Below, piece by piece: positions 16,242 to 40,201 of a DNA stretch of 64,000 nucleotides (within the stretch, counting starts at the first letter, position 1; every line of letters begins with the position of its first letter). The notes under the pieces were generated by a model that saw nothing but the letters and a program-made list of their open reading frames with translations, ran no database searches and was not told the DNA's origin. The stretch comes from Candidatus Jettenia sp. (GTDB lineage: Bacteria > Planctomycetota > Brocadiia > Brocadiales > Brocadiaceae). The position numbers were made by a program, and so were the translations under genes. The stretch is from assembly GCA_021650895.1 (NCBI GenBank), contig CP091278.1, positions 62,001-126,000 of the forward strand, given 5' to 3'.

Positions 16242-17069
16242 TTACTCACTATTACCATGAGTTGTTAATCCCCCTTTTCTAAGCTTATCTTTACCCACAA
16301 GTTAGGTAGAGAGCGAAGGTAGAAGCAAGGTAAACCACGAAGTACACGAAGAAAGAAGGGCGTAGAGGCGCAGGATATTGCGTCTCTACTGATATTGAAT
16401 GGATAAAAAGCAGATAGAGAAAATACCAAAAACTGTAATCATTGAGTTTTCAGAAAGAACCGTCCGGCAATGCATGCATTACAACAGAAGCGAAGTATAT
16501 GATGGTATCAACCCACCCCTAAATCCCCTCCCAAGAGGGGACTTTTATACTCCCCTCTTGAGAGGAGGTTGGGGGTGTGTTTATTCCCCTCTTGGGAGGG
16601 GTTAGGGGTGGGTTCATTTCCCTGTAGAGACATAACATCTTGCGTCTCTACAATTGGATTAGGGGTGTGTTGCTTCCTCTCGGGAGGGGATCGATCATAA
16701 AAAGAATTTGTTGAGACAGGATGAACAGAATTATTATTTTTATCTTGTTCATCCTGTCTCAAAAAAACAAATAATGAAAGAGATCAGGAGATATGTTCCG
16801 GGATCAACAAAATTCTTTGGCTTTCTACACATAAGAAAAACTTCATTTTTATTGAGATTTGGGACTCTCTTATTCTTCATGTACTTTATGTTCTTTGTGG
16901 TGTTTAAAGGTGTGGGTAAGGATAAGTTAGAAAGGGGGGCGAGGGATTTCCCCCTTTTTTAAAGGGGGATCAAGGGGGATTACCTCCCTCTTGTCCTTGT
17001 TTCAGTATCTAAATGGTGGATTCAGCGAAGCGAATCCACCATAGCATCTTATAAGGAGCGAATCAGACC
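16242..17069. repeat. Intergenic repeat cluster between glgB and the GH57 gene
   Basis: No convincing gene. Contents: a GAGGCGCAGGATATTGCGTCTC-like palindrome (about 16363-16390); a dense set of opposed ACCCACCCCTAAATCCCCTCC arms at about 16509-16690; a GTAGAGACATAACATCTTGC palindrome-like element (about 16623-16652); inverted copies of a CAGGATGAACAGAA/TTGTTCATCCTGTC pair (about 16716-16760); and CCCCCTTTTTTAAAGGGGGA (about 16951-16971). A short ATG frame at 16399 runs into repeat sequence and is not credited. Confidence 0.65.
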
Positions 17070-22656: not shown

Positions 22657-24129
22657 ATTGGTACTTTTGGCGCGAAAATATTCCTCACTCAGACATTCTC
22701 CTGCAAGGGGCGAGGGAACTTTGGGGTTATCGGAAAACTCCTGAAAATTACTGCATATTAAATTAGGCCTTCGGCGACTTTTATTTTTAATCAAAAACGT
22801 AGGGCAAGGCTTTAGCCTTGCTTCCCCGCCTAAATATGTGCACGGGGATAGCAACCCTGAAGGGTTGCCCTACAGAATTGAAATTCCTATACGTTACATT
22901 AGGTTTTAAAAGGCAAAACTCAACGACTGTTCTTTTTTACCCACCCCTCAATCCCCTCCCGAGAGGGGACTTTTTGATTCCCCTCTTGGGAGCTTATCTT
23001 TACCCACAAGTCAGAGAGGTAAATTTGAGTATTGCGATAAGATGAAACAGGGTGGCACGGACAAACCATGTCCCCGTGCGTTTTGAACGGGGATATGGTT
23101 TGTCCGTGGTGTTCGAATACGCCCGTGGATAGGGAATATACCACACTGACAAACAGGGTTTGTCAGTGCCACCCAGGAATAGGCTTACAGAGAATAAAAA
23201 TTTCTCTAGAGATGCCCCCGACGAGACATCCCTTCATGGTATTCTAAAGATGTGGGTAATGATAAGTTTTAGAAAAGAGGGAAAGAAGGTAGGATTTTCT
23301 CTTGAGAAAAGTTTGCCTGATCAAACATATCAAACATATCAAACATTTCCCCCTTTTCTGAAGGGAGACTATGCATTTTCCCCTTTTCTAAAGCTAATCA
23401 AACATATCAAATATTTCCTCCTTTCTAAAGCATTCACCTTCTCCCCCTTTTCTAAAGGGGGATTAAGGGGGATTATGTTATTCTTCACCGTTTCCACATT
23501 TTAGCTTGATGCATACGGGAATGAACCCACCCCTAACCCCTCCCAAGAGGGGAATCAAAAAAGTCCCCCTCTCGGGAGGGGATTGAGGGTGGGTAAATCG
23601 GGAGGAGACCCTTAGTCCTATTCTGGAAGGGCAGAGGAGTAAGTAAAAAGAAAAGTCGTTGGGTTTTGTCTTTTACAACCTAACCTAATGTATAGGAATT
23701 TCAATTCTGTAGGGCAACCCTTCAGGGTTGCTCTCCCCATGTATATTCATGCGGGGAAGCAAGGCTAAAGCCTTGCCCTGCGTTTTGATTAAAAACAAAA
23801 GTCGCCTGCCTTATCCAAAAGATTGATACCGACATAGGCCAAGTAAGGAAAGAAACTAGTACAGTGTCAATATAATTCATGATAATATGGTTTGTATCGG
23901 TTCAACTGCATGGGGCTGTGTCATTGCGAGGGTATTGTCCGAAGCAATCTCCTGGATATTTCAAAAGAGATTGCTTCGGGAAAATACCCCTCGCAATGAC
24001 ACATACGAGAGAGTCTATTATGGTAAATTAAGTTGACAGTGTACTACATAGTTAGTTTGAAATTCCTATACATCAAGTAGGGGCAGGTTTAAAACCTGCC
24101 CCTACAACAAACATTGAAATTCCTAACCG
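22657..24129. repeat. Intergenic repeat block after treY (copy 1 of a ~1 kb duplication)
   Basis: No gene is supported. From 22992 to 24046 the sequence closely matches 39080-40066. It includes a GGTGGCACGGACAAACCATG hairpin with its complement (about 23050-23120), a CACTGACAAACAGGGTTTG hairpin (about 23145-23170), CCCCCTTTTCTAAAGGGGG arms (about 23340-23475), opposed CCCACCCCTAACCCCTCCC arms (about 23525-23598), a BIME-like composite (23688-23792), the MITE (23857-24046) and a GTAGGGGCAGGTTTAAAACC palindrome (24077-24105). An additional BIME composite lies at 22795-22890. Confidence 0.8.
23857..24046. mobile_element. MITE family 1, copy B
   Basis: A 190-bp element with ends TAGTACAGTGTCAA and TTGACAGTGTACTA and an internal ~65-bp hairpin (GAGGGTATTGTCCGAAGC against GCTTCGGGAAAATACCCCTC). 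The left flank (GACATAGGCCAAGTAAGGAA) is shared with copy C; the right flank (TTTGAAATTCCTATACATCA) is shared with copy A. No coding capacity. Confidence 0.85.
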
Positions 24130-25374
24130 TTACATCGAATTACTTTTGCCCATGCGTCTTATACGCTTGTTTGATGATGGGGCGTTATCAGAGGGTAGTT
24201 TCCTGAGTGCATTATTGATAATGCCATAGCGAACGAGAGAACGGGCATATTTCACATCAGTGTTTGACCTGTCATAATAGCTGATATGCACAAAACCATT
24301 GGTATCAACCTTGAGAGAGGTACACTCACCTACTCGTCCGGCACTATCCACAATCTTCTTTGTCCACAGACCAGAGGTATTATTAGCATATTTAAGATTC
24401 CGGTTTGTCCGGTCATAATAACTGATATGGACATTATCAAATGCGTCAACTGCCAGAGAGGTGTACAGACCGACGGATACTCCGGAATAAGCATCTACTG
24501 TTTTACTAATCCACGGACCATCCATATTATTGGCATACATAAGCCGCTCATTACTGACATCATAATAGCTGATATGCACACTATCAAATGAATCTATGCC
24601 TATGGAAGAATATTGCCCTACATTTGCATCATAGGTACCTCTATCTACTATTTCAGTAGACCATGCAGCATTCTCATAGAGGGCATGCTTGAGATCACCG
24701 TTGGTAAGATTGTAATAACTGATATGCACGTTATCCATGGAATCGATCGCCAGAGAAGTAAAAAGGCCTACGTCATCGATACTATCAACGGTTGTTATTG
24801 TCCATGAGGCAGGATTCAGAGGCGTACTGGTAGAGGCACATTTGAGATTCCTATTGGTAGCATCGTAATAGCTGATGTATACCTTCCCCGTTGAGTCTAA
24901 TGCTATAGAAGTATATAAACCAATATTGCCCGTACTATCCACCGTAGAGATGGACCACGAACTGGCTGTATCATTGGTAGCAAATTTAAGATTACCATTC
25001 ATTTGATCATAATAACTTACGTACATTTTAGTGTTCGATTTTTTCATTGCCATAGCGGTATATTTGCCTACCAATCCTGCGCTCTCTATTGTTTTCTTTG
25101 ACCATGATCCGGAAGATGTGTTATATACGTATTTAAGGTCTCTGCTAGTAGCATTATAATAGTTGATATATGCCTTATTGGTAGTACTCAATCCCAGAGA
25201 GGTGAAAGGTCCTTCAGAGTAGCTGCCTCCCATGCCGGCAATATACCAGGTATTCCGTGATAAGTTACTGTCAAGACGGGATACAGAGACATCATACCCT
25301 CCATTGTGAGAGGGATCATAAGCGCCAGGAGTAGTAGGGAGGTCTGTCGTTGCATCAGAGGTATATCCTGTCAC
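24130..25374 (-). CDS. C-terminal part of the SBBP propeller protein (frame-shifted)
   Basis: 414 codons from a GTG (25372-25374) that overlaps the stop of the upstream part by four bases (GTGA). The first ~30 residues complete the seventh SBBP repeat (TSDATTDLPTTPGAYDPSHN). The rest consists of about eight repeats of ~45 residues with the core VHISYYDxTNxxLKYA, a second propeller-like blade type. The C-terminus is basic (SNKRIRRMGKSNS). It has no signal peptide of its own, and homology clearly continues across the junction. It is therefore most likely the second half of one exported protein, separated by a one-base deletion, unless re-initiation at the GTG makes it separately. Confidence 0.75.
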   Translation of the reverse strand: MTGYTSDATTDLPTTPGAYDPSHNGGYDVSVSRLDSNLSRNTWYIAGMGGSYSEGPFTSLGLSTTNKAYINYYNATSRDLKYVYNTSSGSWSKKTIESAGLVGKYTAMAMKKSNTKMYVSYYDQMNGNLKFATNDTASSWSISTVDSTGNIGLYTSIALDSTGKVYISYYDATNRNLKCASTSTPLNPASWTITTVDSIDDVGLFTSLAIDSMDNVHISYYNLTNGDLKHALYENAAWSTEIVDRGTYDANVGQYSSIGIDSFDSVHISYYDVSNERLMYANNMDGPWISKTVDAYSGVSVGLYTSLAVDAFDNVHISYYDRTNRNLKYANNTSGLWTKKIVDSAGRVGECTSLKVDTNGFVHISYYDRSNTDVKYARSLVRYGIINNALRKLPSDNAPSSNKRIRRMGKSNSM

Positions 25375-27770
25375 ATAGACGTTTCCCCCGTATCTATGGT
25401 AAGGGAATTACCATAATCAGTAGTAGCCCCACCCAGAAAAGTAGATGCCAGAAGGTTGGTCAGACCACTGTTGAATTTCGATACAAAGGTATCATATCCA
25501 CCATTGTGAGAGGTATCATAAGCGCCACCCGTAGTAGGGAGGTCTGTCGCTGCATTAGCGGTACTCCCTGTCACATAGACGTTTCCCTCCGTATCTATGG
25601 CAAGGGAATTACCATAATCAGTAGTAGCCCCACCCAGAAAAGTAGATGCCAGAAGGTTGGTCAGACCACTGTTGAATTTCGATACAAAGGCATCAAACCC
25701 ACCATTGTGAGAGGGATCATAAGCGCCACTCGTAGTAGGGAGGTAGGTTGTTGCATCAGAGGTATCCCCTATCACATAGACGTTTCCCTCCGTATCTATG
25801 GCAAGGGAATTACCATAATCAGTAGTAGCCCCACCCAGAAAAGTAGATGCCAGAAGGCTGGTCAGACCACTGTTGAATTTCGATACAAAGGCATCATATC
25901 CACCATTGTGAGAGGTATCATAAGCGCCACTCGTAGTAGGGAGGTCTGTCGCTGCGTCATGGGTATATCCCGCCACATAGACTTTGCCCACCGTATCTAT
26001 GGCAAGAGAACTACCATAATCAGTACCAGCTCCACCCAGAAAAGTAGATGCCAGAAGGCTGGTCAGACCACTGTTGAATTTCGATACAAAGACATCAGAG
26101 AAACCATTGTGAGAGGGATCGTAAGCGCCACTCGTAGTGGGGAGGTCTGTCGCTGCGTCATTGGTACGTCCTGTCACATAGACGTTTCCCTCCGTATCTA
26201 TGGCAAGGGAATAACCATAATCATCACTAGCCCCACCCAGAAACGTGGATGCCAGAAGACTGGTCAGGCCACTGTTGAATTTCGATACAAAGACATCAGA
26301 GAAACCATTGTGAGAGGGATCATAAGCGCCAGGAGTAATAGGGAGGTCGGTTGTTGCATCAAAGGTATATCCTGTCACATAGATATCTCCCTCCATGTCT
26401 ATGGCAAGGGAATAACCATAATCATCACTAGCCCCACCCAGAAAAGTAGATGCCAGAAGACTGGTCAGGCCACTGTTGAATTTCGATACAAAGGCATCAA
26501 ACCCACCATTGTGAGAGGTATCATAAGTGCTACCCGTAGTAGGGAGGTCTGTTGTTGCATCAAGGGTATATCCTGTCACATAGACATTTCCCCCCGTATC
26601 TATGGCAAGGGAATAACCATAATCACTACCAGATCCACCAAGAAACGTGGATGCCAGGAGGGGGTCGATGATGAGGTCCTTTGATGTATCGTATGATGCT
26701 ACCGTAAAGCCATAAACGAGGTGAGACGTTGAAGGGTCAGGAGTTGTAAGTTGAGAGGTTTTTTCTTCTTTATGCTGACTCCTGGCTTCTGTCTCCTGAA
26801 CACTATATTCCACTGCCACATCAACCATCTTCCCACCAATCTCCTGAAAGGCTACCGGTTTGGTAAATGACACCTTCCCTAACTCTGTCTCTACCTCAAG
26901 CTCTCCGTGGTCGTTAATGTATAACCCCCCTTGATCCCCCTTTAGAAAAGGGGGAAAATTCCCTTGATCCACCTCTTGTAAAAGAGGAGAATGTCCTTTG
27001 TACTCCCTTTGTGAAGAAGGAACAGTGAAGCCCCCCTTTTCTAAAGGGGGGTTGGGGGGATTAGGAAGTTTCACCCCACTCAACCTTACCTGAATCTGCC
27101 TCGGATCAGCACCTGGTTTCACACAAAAGAGCTTCTCCACATTATCCCCATACGCCTTCAGTCTTAGCTCTATCCCCTCGTATACCTCTCCGAGGTTTAC
27201 CTCTCCATAGGTCGCAATACCGCTCCTCCACTTCGATGGATCATTGCCCTTAAAATAACTCACCTTTGTCTCCGACTCGTCTTCTCCTCTTATCCCCATA
27301 ATCCTCCCATCAACAAGCTCCTCTTTCAATATCAGTCCTTTTTTACAAGACGTATTTTGGAGACTGGTATCGACAGACATGAGCACAGGTGATACAGAAT
27401 GCAGGGTATTCTGATACTCAGGTAACCGGCAGCGTGCATAGTGATTGATGTACCTTGCAGGATAGGATGCTCTCTCTATTCTTTTCATGCCATCATCTTC
27501 TCTCCCCCCTGACTGAGGTAATGAATAGATGATTTCACCGGTTTTCGTCACAAACACCGTCCCACCGAAGGTATGTGCATAGAAACTTATCCTTGTATCT
27601 GTCTGTCCTTCATTGATGATAAAAGGCAACTGAAGCCTTTGTGTCTTTCGGGTAAATTCCTCCTGAGTCAATTTCCTTGCTGTATCTTCCCCGGATACAT
27701 GGCCTCCCGTTAAAGACAGTGCAAATAAAAGAACTACAGACAATCCAAAAAACTTCACGCTCCTTTTCAT
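25371..27770 (-). CDS. Exported SBBP beta-propeller repeat protein, N-terminal part
   Basis: 799 residues from ATG 27768-27770, chosen over the ATG 27 codons upstream because GGAGGGGG lies six bases before it and a signal peptide (KRSVKFFGLSVVLLFALSLT) begins there. Residues ~35-330 form the conserved N-terminal domain of such proteins (LPFIINEGQTDTRISFYA, GEVYEGIELRLKAYG). From ~395 there are seven SBBP repeats of ~69 residues with the core STFLGGxxxDYGxSLAIDT and GNVYVTGYT. The frame ends within the seventh repeat: C5 at 25385-25389 stands where the first repeat has C6 (26590-26595). A block of intergenic repeat DNA is embedded in-frame at about 26924-27066. Confidence 0.85.
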   Translation of the reverse strand: MKRSVKFFGLSVVLLFALSLTGGHVSGEDTARKLTQEEFTRKTQRLQLPFIINEGQTDTRISFYAHTFGGTVFVTKTGEIIYSLPQSGGREDDGMKRIERASYPARYINHYARCRLPEYQNTLHSVSPVLMSVDTSLQNTSCKKGLILKEELVDGRIMGIRGEDESETKVSYFKGNDPSKWRSGIATYGEVNLGEVYEGIELRLKAYGDNVEKLFCVKPGADPRQIQVRLSGVKLPNPPNPPLEKGGFTVPSSQREYKGHSPLLQEVDQGNFPPFLKGDQGGLYINDHGELEVETELGKVSFTKPVAFQEIGGKMVDVAVEYSVQETEARSQHKEEKTSQLTTPDPSTSHLVYGFTVASYDTSKDLIIDPLLASTFLGGSGSDYGYSLAIDTGGNVYVTGYTLDATTDLPTTGSTYDTSHNGGFDAFVSKFNSGLTSLLASTFLGGASDDYGYSLAIDMEGDIYVTGYTFDATTDLPITPGAYDPSHNGFSDVFVSKFNSGLTSLLASTFLGGASDDYGYSLAIDTEGNVYVTGRTNDAATDLPTTSGAYDPSHNGFSDVFVSKFNSGLTSLLASTFLGGAGTDYGSSLAIDTVGKVYVAGYTHDAATDLPTTSGAYDTSHNGGYDAFVSKFNSGLTSLLASTFLGGATTDYGNSLAIDTEGNVYVIGDTSDATTYLPTTSGAYDPSHNGGFDAFVSKFNSGLTNLLASTFLGGATTDYGNSLAIDTEGNVYVTGSTANAATDLPTTGGAYDTSHNGGYDTFVSKFNSGLTNLLASTFLGGATTDYGNSLTIDTGETSM
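26924..27066. repeat. Intergenic repeat inserted in-frame in a coding sequence
   Basis: Two copies of the CCCCCTTTTCTAAAGGGGG-type inverted module (about 26925-26955 and 27030-27055) plus a related CTCTTGTAAAAGAGGAG module between them. This is the same family seen in spacers at about 16938-16982, 23441-23475 and 39460-39495. In the protein it yields a low-complexity insert containing NPPNPPLEKGGF and NFPPFLKGDQGGL, just before the segment that leads into the propeller. Confidence 0.8.
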
Positions 27771-38556: not shown

Positions 38557-40201
38557 TATAGCAAATAAGGAAAACTACTTTAATTACGTCTTCAGCAACT
38601 GTATCTGTGATCATACGTAAGGGCGAAGCATTTGGTGTTCAGCATACAAGACTACACAGTACCCTCTGTATGAAACCAAATATACCGCATTCATGGCACT
38701 CAACGCAGATACCCCATGTCACCCTTTGGGGTTGAAGGGCTTTTTTCTGCTTTTTCTATAAACATGACATTCCTGCGGGATTAGGCAGGAAAATTAAATT
38801 AGGCCTTCGGAAACTTTTATCTCTTCGTCAGATGTAGGGCAAGGCTTTAGCCTTGCCTCCCCACCTGAATAACCTACACGAGGATAGCAATCCAAAAGGA
38901 TTGCCCTCCAGAATTGAAATTCCTATACATTAAAATAAAGATGCAAAATCTTGCGTCTCTACAATTGCAACATCGTGTGTCTCTGTGTTTAACGTTGAGA
39001 AATTTCAATTCCGTAGGGCAACCCTTTAGGGTTGCTTGGCAAGGCTAAAGCCTCGCCCTACATCGGCTCTGTTTTTTCATCTTATCATTACCCACAAGTC
39101 AGAGAGGTAAACTTGAGTAGTGCGATAAGACTAAACAGGGTGGCACAGGCAAAAGATTCCCGTACGTCTTGAACGGGGACATGGTTTGTCCGTGGTGTTC
39201 GAATACATCCGTGGATAGGGAGTATACCACACTGACAAACAGAGTTTGTCAGTGCCACCCAGGAATAGGCTTACAGAGAATAAAAATTTCTCGAGAGACA
39301 TCCCCCGACGAGACATCTCTTCATGGTATTCTAAAGATGTGGGTAATGATAAGTTTAAAAAGGAGGGAAAGAAGGAAGGATTTTTTCTTGAGAAAAATTT
39401 GCCTGATCAAAATATCAAATATTTCCCTCTTTTCTAAAGCTGATCAAAAATATCAAACTTCTCCCCCTTTTCTAAAGGGGGATTAGGGGGATTATGTTAT
39501 TCTTCACCGTTTCCACATTTTAGCTTGATGCATACGGGAATGAACCCACCCCTAACCCCTCCCAAGAGGGGAATCAAAAAAGTCCCCTCTCGGGAGGGGA
39601 TTGAGGGGTGGGTAAATCGGGAGGATACCCTTAGTCCCATTCTGGAAGGGCAGAGGAGTAAGTAAAAAAGAAAAGTCGTTGGGTTTTGTCTTTTACAACC
39701 TAACCTAATGTATAGGAATTTCAATTCTGTAGGGCAACCCTTCAGGGTTGCTCTCCCCATGTATATTCATGCAGGGAAGCAAGGCTAAAGCCTTGCCCTA
39801 CGTTTTGATTAAAAACAAAAGTCGCCTGCCTTATCCAAAAGATTGATAGCGACATAGGCCGAGTAAGGAAAGAAACTAGTACATTGTCAACTTAATTTAT
39901 CATAATAGACTCTCTCGTATGTGTCATTGCGAGGGGTATTTTCCCGAAGCAATCTCTTTTGAAATATCCAGAGGATTGCTTCGGACAATACCCTCGCAAT
40001 GACACAGCCCCATGCAGTTGAACCGATGCAAACCGTATTATCATGAATTATATTGACAGTGTACTAGCTAATTGAATCAACGAATTGATACCATTATTCA
40101 AATACTTATGATGCTAAGATCAGATCAGAAGTAACACATTTCACGATTAAGGGAATAGGATAGCTCCCGAAAAACCGTTGCCCTGAACGGTTTGTCCTTT
40201 C
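38557..40201. repeat. Intergenic repeat block (copy 2 of the ~1 kb duplication)
   Basis: No gene is supported. 39080-40066 is the second copy of the block at 22992-24046, in the same orientation, with its MITE reversed. Further contents: BIME composites at about 38828-38935, 38995-39064 and 39712-39808; an AGATGCAAAATCTTGCGTCT palindrome (about 38940-38961); GGACATGGTTTGTCCGTGG and CACTGACAAACAGAGTTTG hairpins (about 39177-39255); and opposed CCCACCCCTAACCCCTCCC arms (about 39543-39614). 38938-39064 is an inverted copy of 28917-29071. Confidence 0.8.
39877..40066. mobile_element. MITE family 1, copy C (reversed)
   Basis: 190 bp with ends TAGTACATTGTCAA and TTGACAGTGTACTA. The whole interior is the reverse complement of copy B, yet the left flank (AGTAAGGAAAGAAAC) is the same as that of copy B. 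The right flank (GCTAATTGAATCAACG) differs. No coding capacity. Confidence 0.85.

Follow-up and report, generated by a model that had tools for sequence, protein, structure and literature searches.

A dispersed palindromic repeat is predicted, from its reading frame, to have been turned into protein in the DNA analysed here, a stretch of 64,000 nucleotides of Candidatus Jettenia sp. (contig CP091278.1, positions 62,001 to 126,000) that is called the window; this conversion is real and well supported. It is very probable that the palindrome was inserted in an ancestral DUF7948-SBBP gene, that the gene was duplicated, and that the insert is read as a disordered loop; its ends were probably homogenised, and the repeat family is probably mobilised by a DUF559 nuclease.

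The host protein of 826 aa has a DUF7948 domain (PF25778) and, after it, SBBP repeats. Another frame on the minus strand, at 24130-25374 and of a similar family, continues where the 826-aa frame stops. A frameshift in the window gene near 25371 is possible, because the corresponding parts form one frame in the paralogue L025. An earlier note on this DNA had described two modules, CCCCCTTTAGAAAAGGGGG and CCCCCCTTTTCTAAAGGGGGG, and both lie where it placed them (Table 1), in frame in the SBBP protein and encoding NPPNPPLEKGGF and PPFLKGDQGGL as it had read. Their presence is thus confirmed, but not their separateness, as both are the ends of a single composite element. This element comprises two CCCCCTTT-NNN-AAAGGGGG hairpins face to face, has terminal inverted repeats and, with short flanks, pairs end to end as RNA at -69.8 kcal/mol; no match was found in Rfam. 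The stretches read contain 26 two-ended elements of 78-441 bp, which end in TAAyCCCC..GGGG(A/G)TTA by way of the search. The predicted tryptic peptides of the repeat-derived insert include GHSPLLQEVDQGNFPPFLK and GDQGGLYINDHGELEVETELGK.

Table 1. Host gene, composite element and further repeat copies, with positions in the window
Feature	Position	Strand	Description and basis
DUF7948-SBBP protein gene, 826 aa	25371..27851	minus	Signal-like N-terminus, DUF7948 domain, SBBP repeats; ORF and domain match
Composite palindromic element, 142 bp	26922..27063	minus	In frame, predicted to add ~47 residues (LPNPPNPPLEKGGF..FPPFLKGDQGG); mapped ends, empty homologues, Pfam break 148/149
First terminal hairpin in coding order	27031..27051		CCCCCCTTTTCTAAAGGGGGG on the plus strand; encodes PPLEKG
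Second terminal hairpin	26936..26954		CCCCCTTTAGAAAAGGGGG on the plus strand; encodes PPFLKGD
Element middle	26955..27030		Degenerate palindromic units, number varying among paralogues; alignment of four paralogues
End-module copy outside long frames	16947..16982		Profile of end module
End-module copy outside long frames	23442..23475		Profile of end module
End-module copy outside long frames	39462..39494		Profile of end module

The repeat is dispersed throughout the genome and the family. The whole window has 11 palindrome matches at up to 2 mismatches against 0.33 expected, a count that takes overlapping registers of one copy apart and corresponds to ~6 places. The modules had been said to occur otherwise in spacers, and the other window copies (near 16950, 23443 and 39463) are indeed not inside a long frame that extends on both sides. 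At up to 1 mismatch, the core palindrome CCCCTTTNNNAAAGGGG occurs 203 times in the 3.82-Mb genome and the backwards control pattern twice; two further genomes of the genus contain 199 and 173 copies, and 21 further family members searched contain 3 to 165. A profile of the end module gave 27 matches in 16 clusters over the window together with 400 kb sampled at even intervals, and 15 of these clusters are outside long frames while the remaining one is the window-gene insert. The evenly spaced 400 kb alone has 12 repeat clusters, none in a long frame, and the reversed sequence gave 0 matches to the profile. Exact-palindrome clusters numbered 63 in the stretches read, or 61 after two found via the SBBP search were set aside. 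Supported in-gene clusters are 3 of these 61 (the window gene, a paralogue at 1561845, and 1293936), all in DUF7948-SBBP genes; two more (1105709 and 1275661) are inside frames of ~130 residues that have no other support. Moreover, the loop DNA of four carrier genes matches 25-34 times elsewhere in the 400 kb, whereas core segments of the same genes match 0 times. In samples of genomes G017 and G008, loops match just 0-4 times, and in two G008 genes a core segment matched as well, one per gene. PPFLKGD-type peptides can thus be traced to nucleotide repeats, a check that the earlier note had proposed. Runs of C and G abound in the segment, which could suggest chance low-complexity sequence or an assembly error; the count of 203 to 2 already refutes that reading, four paralogues and a second species carry the insert, and its probability is negligible.

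Homologues free of the insert, for which the same note had called, are in the majority. Loop B, the site of the insertion, has 4-5 residues in 57 of 72 aligned domain rows and is longer in 15; the rows are near-complete domain matches (25 incomplete ones among 97 hit frames were removed), with one gene counted twice, as L035 and L166. All 19 rows titled as other groups or just as a bacterium have a loop B of 5 residues, and they include Nitrospirae, Aquificales, Desulfocapsa, Zixibacteriota, Gemmatimonadota, an archaeon, and others. Distant homologues with the same segment inside a conserved domain, the observation that would have spoken against an inserted repeat, are therefore not seen among these 19. 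In all four genes that carry the repeat at loop B, the Pfam model is broken exactly between positions 148 and 149. An AlphaFold2 model built with 57 sequences (mean pLDDT 74.9) places the insert, at pLDDT <50, between confident strands, so that it is predicted to be disordered; another variable loop, residues 60-99, is likewise below 50. A PDB fold search with the DUF7948 domain gave no significant match. Two further DUF7948 loops vary from ~13 to 190 and from 16 to 116 residues (L039, L033 and L035; genomes G004, G008 and G017), and they contain peptides, such as HSERSEES, RPLRERDRVRG and HKDTKNTKEG, that resemble translated repeats.

DUF7948 occurs at 9 places in the genome, one of them a short fragment, and 5 carry the repeat. 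Four genes (the window gene, L025, L026 and L027) have it at loop B, while the fifth carrier, L030, has it at another loop and in a different phase, read as SPFSKGGPRGI. Duplication after insertion would explain why four paralogues have the insert at the same site. These four share the left junction and the uncommon end variant CCCCCCAACCCCCC, their element middles can be aligned, the frame is open in each, and every length change is of whole codons. The insert is also present in L006 (G002:C3:907803-911702), a decayed relative or orthologue of the window gene, in which the frame is shifted and interrupted by stop codons. Between the window gene and L027, same-residue codons differ at 2 of 30 positions in the insert ends versus 61 of 174 in the flanks (p = 0.001, with the ends chosen after looking), and residues differ at 2 of 32 versus 91 of 266. 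No such synonymous contrast is seen between the window gene and L025 or L026 (p = 0.4 and 1). Near-identical insert ends in diverged genes point to gene conversion or other homogenisation at the DNA level, and we infer that the ends were homogenised with other copies by a process of this kind.

The history of the insert could be read in two other ways. Each paralogue may have received its own copy at a hot site, instead of one insertion followed by duplication. Independent arrivals at loop B do occur elsewhere, with L009 as an example in another phase and L035, L116 and L112 as examples from another repeat family, and insert ends that have diverged so little between the window gene and L027 are compatible with a later arrival; the shared junction, the shared end variant and the alignable middle argue for a single insertion and make parallel ones improbable. 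The segment could also be a functional, selected part of the protein, with the repeats elsewhere as its secondary copies. The open frame in all four genes and the whole-codon length changes would suit selection, but the segment is missing from most homologues and is predicted to be disordered, its synonymous sites are conserved together with its residues, and the ~200 copies are mostly outside genes, which leaves this reading with very little probability.

Loop B has also received other repeats. In L009 (G021, another genus) it holds the same broad palindrome type in another phase, PPLSPFFKGDL, and in L035, L116 and L112 it holds a different palindrome, NPPPLSPSV(R/K)GTGG... A query with most of the L035 insert, starting a few residues inside it and including some core codons, matched at 7-45 places in 8 of 10 genomes, at 1 in G008 and at 0 in G000, and most of the matches listed are in the insert part. 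The L035-type repeat is therefore dispersed across genomes, and loop B has been reached by at least two dispersed families. For a third loop type, DCGVRNAEC..NPKSEFQNPK, a pattern search did not show dispersal, and it is not claimed as a repeat.

Evidence from related genomes suggests that a small nuclease gene accompanies such repeats in their spread. In G001, a genome of the window's genus, the locus corresponding to G000:312458 has a DUF559 frame with a complete element on each side; in G000 this place has an element but no such frame. Of the first 36 bases of the left G001 element, 34 are identical to one end of the window insert. DUF559 is a domain frequent in PD-(D/E)XK, Vsr-like endonucleases, according to the accessible part of the source (PMC12907096). 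Among small DUF559 loci of Brocadiales, on which the hairpin criterion was shaped except for two loci, a C-rich hairpin is found within 250 bp in 18 of 27 and on both sides in 7 of 27, with 9 of 27 having none by the rule used, and long fused frames have it in 0 of 5. The excess of hairpins in near over far segments is clear in this set (p = 8e-12). The criterion was fixed before the next two sets. In other Planctomycetota, 13 of 18 small loci have a hairpin and 10 have it on both sides (long frames 1 of 3); on plasmids of Cyanobacteria, Deinococcus, Photobacterium and Alphaproteobacteria the numbers are 8 of 9 and 4 of 9 (long frame 1 of 1). Near segments have hairpins more often than far segments of the same loci in both sets, at 23/36 versus 4/100 (p = 4e-13) and 12/18 versus 3/51 (p = 7e-7), respectively. 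In a further Brocadiales set, 13 of 18 DUF559 loci have a hairpin, 5 of them on both sides. In three genomes, a perfect hairpin lies within 200 bp of 2 of 186 frames of 100-220 residues, compared with 13 of 25 small DUF559 frames. Hairpin type tracks the DUF559 tree, with 13 changes on 39 labelled rows and none of 300 shuffles as low, in a test from which 13 of 52 rows were omitted because their hairpins were mixed or unclassified, and which does not control for genome relatedness. One Sphingomonas plasmid has a hairpin-DUF559-hairpin unit between sufB and sufC. The small DUF559 genes read in the window genome have flanking hairpins that are related, not identical, to the element.

The DUF559 genes are flanked by the same kind of C-rich hairpin, and the window element is therefore probably a non-autonomous, REPIN-like partner of a DUF559 nuclease. 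A competing view assigns mobilisation to a RAYT-type Y1 transposase or to some other insertion sequence, with DUF559 as a frequent neighbour or as a user of the hairpins as terminators. REP elements go together with RAYTs, and the genome has 12 Y1 matches, including three near-identical copies of 330 aa (G000:C1:61238, 1435354 and 1958366). No CCCCTTT palindrome is near these three genes, and none of the eight Y1 loci read has the palindrome within ~1.5 kb. Terminators do not explain hairpins that stand upstream of DUF559 genes too, as on both sides at 10 of 18 and 4 of 9 independent loci. A Y1 or other insertion-sequence mobiliser is accordingly unlikely, yet it keeps the largest share among the competing readings. 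The evidence supports, but does not prove, the link between DUF559 and the hairpins, which is a more surprising lead than the in-gene palindrome. The wider proposal, for which we would give slightly less than even chances, is that small DUF559 (Vsr-like, PD-(D/E)XK) nucleases and C-rich hairpins together make up a separate mobile system, present in several phyla and parallel to yet distinct from RAYT-REP. The nuclease gene would travel between two hairpins, the hundreds of dispersed palindromes would be its non-autonomous offspring, and disordered DUF7948 loops would be a sink where repeats of at least two families and in several phases become protein.

Comparison with sister species at two loci found neither a target duplication nor a clean empty site for the palindromic element. 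At the first locus the apparent empty site belongs to an outer, different element with TTACTCAAAATA ends, and at the second G001 keeps the elements. A segment of ~720 bp at L089:979-1697 (G000:C1:1280178-1280896) has the ends TTACTCAAAATA..TATTTTGAGTAA and a CCCCTTT palindrome inside; it is missing from G001 and G002, in which the flanks join directly and overlap by 8 bp, and it is a second, unrelated MITE-like element. A larger autonomous transposon was considered between the distant ends at 194420-195678, which enclose just short unremarkable frames.

The preferred reading, a single insertion followed by duplication, can be laid out as a series of proposed steps. A REPIN-like palindromic element would have been inserted in the ancestral DUF7948-SBBP gene, in a stop-free phase and at a surface loop flanked by two beta strands. 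The gene would then have been duplicated, and the insert would be translated as a disordered Pro/Lys/Gly-rich loop that is tolerated. The element family may be mobilised by the small DUF559 (Vsr-like) nuclease, the gene of which is bracketed by like hairpins; cutting or nicking of extruded hairpins by this nuclease would be followed by repair, through which copies would spread.

Several known systems resemble parts of this arrangement. REPIN/RAYT systems have short hairpins in many copies, frequently paired in inverted orientation around a short middle, and a hairpin-flanked RAYT gene. The present elements share the high copy number, the inverted pairs and the small nuclease-type gene bracketed by hairpins. 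By contrast, REP ends have a GTAG/CGTC tag according to the part of the source available (PMC3733652), which is absent from the element ends printed, and the bracketed gene is DUF559 (Vsr-like) and not a Y1 transposase. Similar to MITEs such as QMITE1/2 of Coxiella, described in the accessible text as non-autonomous inverted-repeat elements that are sometimes fused in frame (PMC5896051), the window element has inverted-repeat ends and an in-frame fusion; a parent transposon of known family with its ends was not found, nor was a target duplication at the two loci compared. The small DUF559 proteins have the same domain as Caulobacter VsrA, which is treated as a mismatch-repair-type endonuclease in a text whose available part does not contain 'palindrom' (PMC12907096), in contrast to the hairpin-linked DUF559. 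A literature search for the element sequence, and for DUF559 with palindromes, returned nothing on the topic, and among the listed papers with the word DUF559 none concerned hairpin repeats in its title or abstract opening. If the DUF559 link is true, it would identify what mobilises a common class of hairpin repeats in bacteria and make that mobiliser testable.

The best-documented in-frame palindromes are those of Rickettsia and related bacteria. The window adds a clear example from a free-living lineage of anammox type, for which homologues lack the insert and the structural site of insertion is defined. It also serves as a warning for annotation, as Pro/Lys/Gly-rich stretches such as PPFLKGD and SPFSKGG can be translated repeats instead of conserved domains. 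Rickettsia palindromic elements (RPEs) are, in the accessible parts of the sources, small palindromic elements of 105-146 bp that occur between genes and fused in frame inside genes (PMC2229807), in many unrelated genes and RNA genes (PMC2229807, PMC10969869). The parallel with RPEs that the earlier note had drawn stands for size, palindromy and frame, since the window element of 142 bp falls within the RPE range and its kind is found both between genes and in frame within them. It does not extend to spread, because the supported in-gene copies, 3 of 61 clusters, are all in DUF7948-SBBP proteins. The window element is thus like RPEs in effect and is not filed as an RPE.
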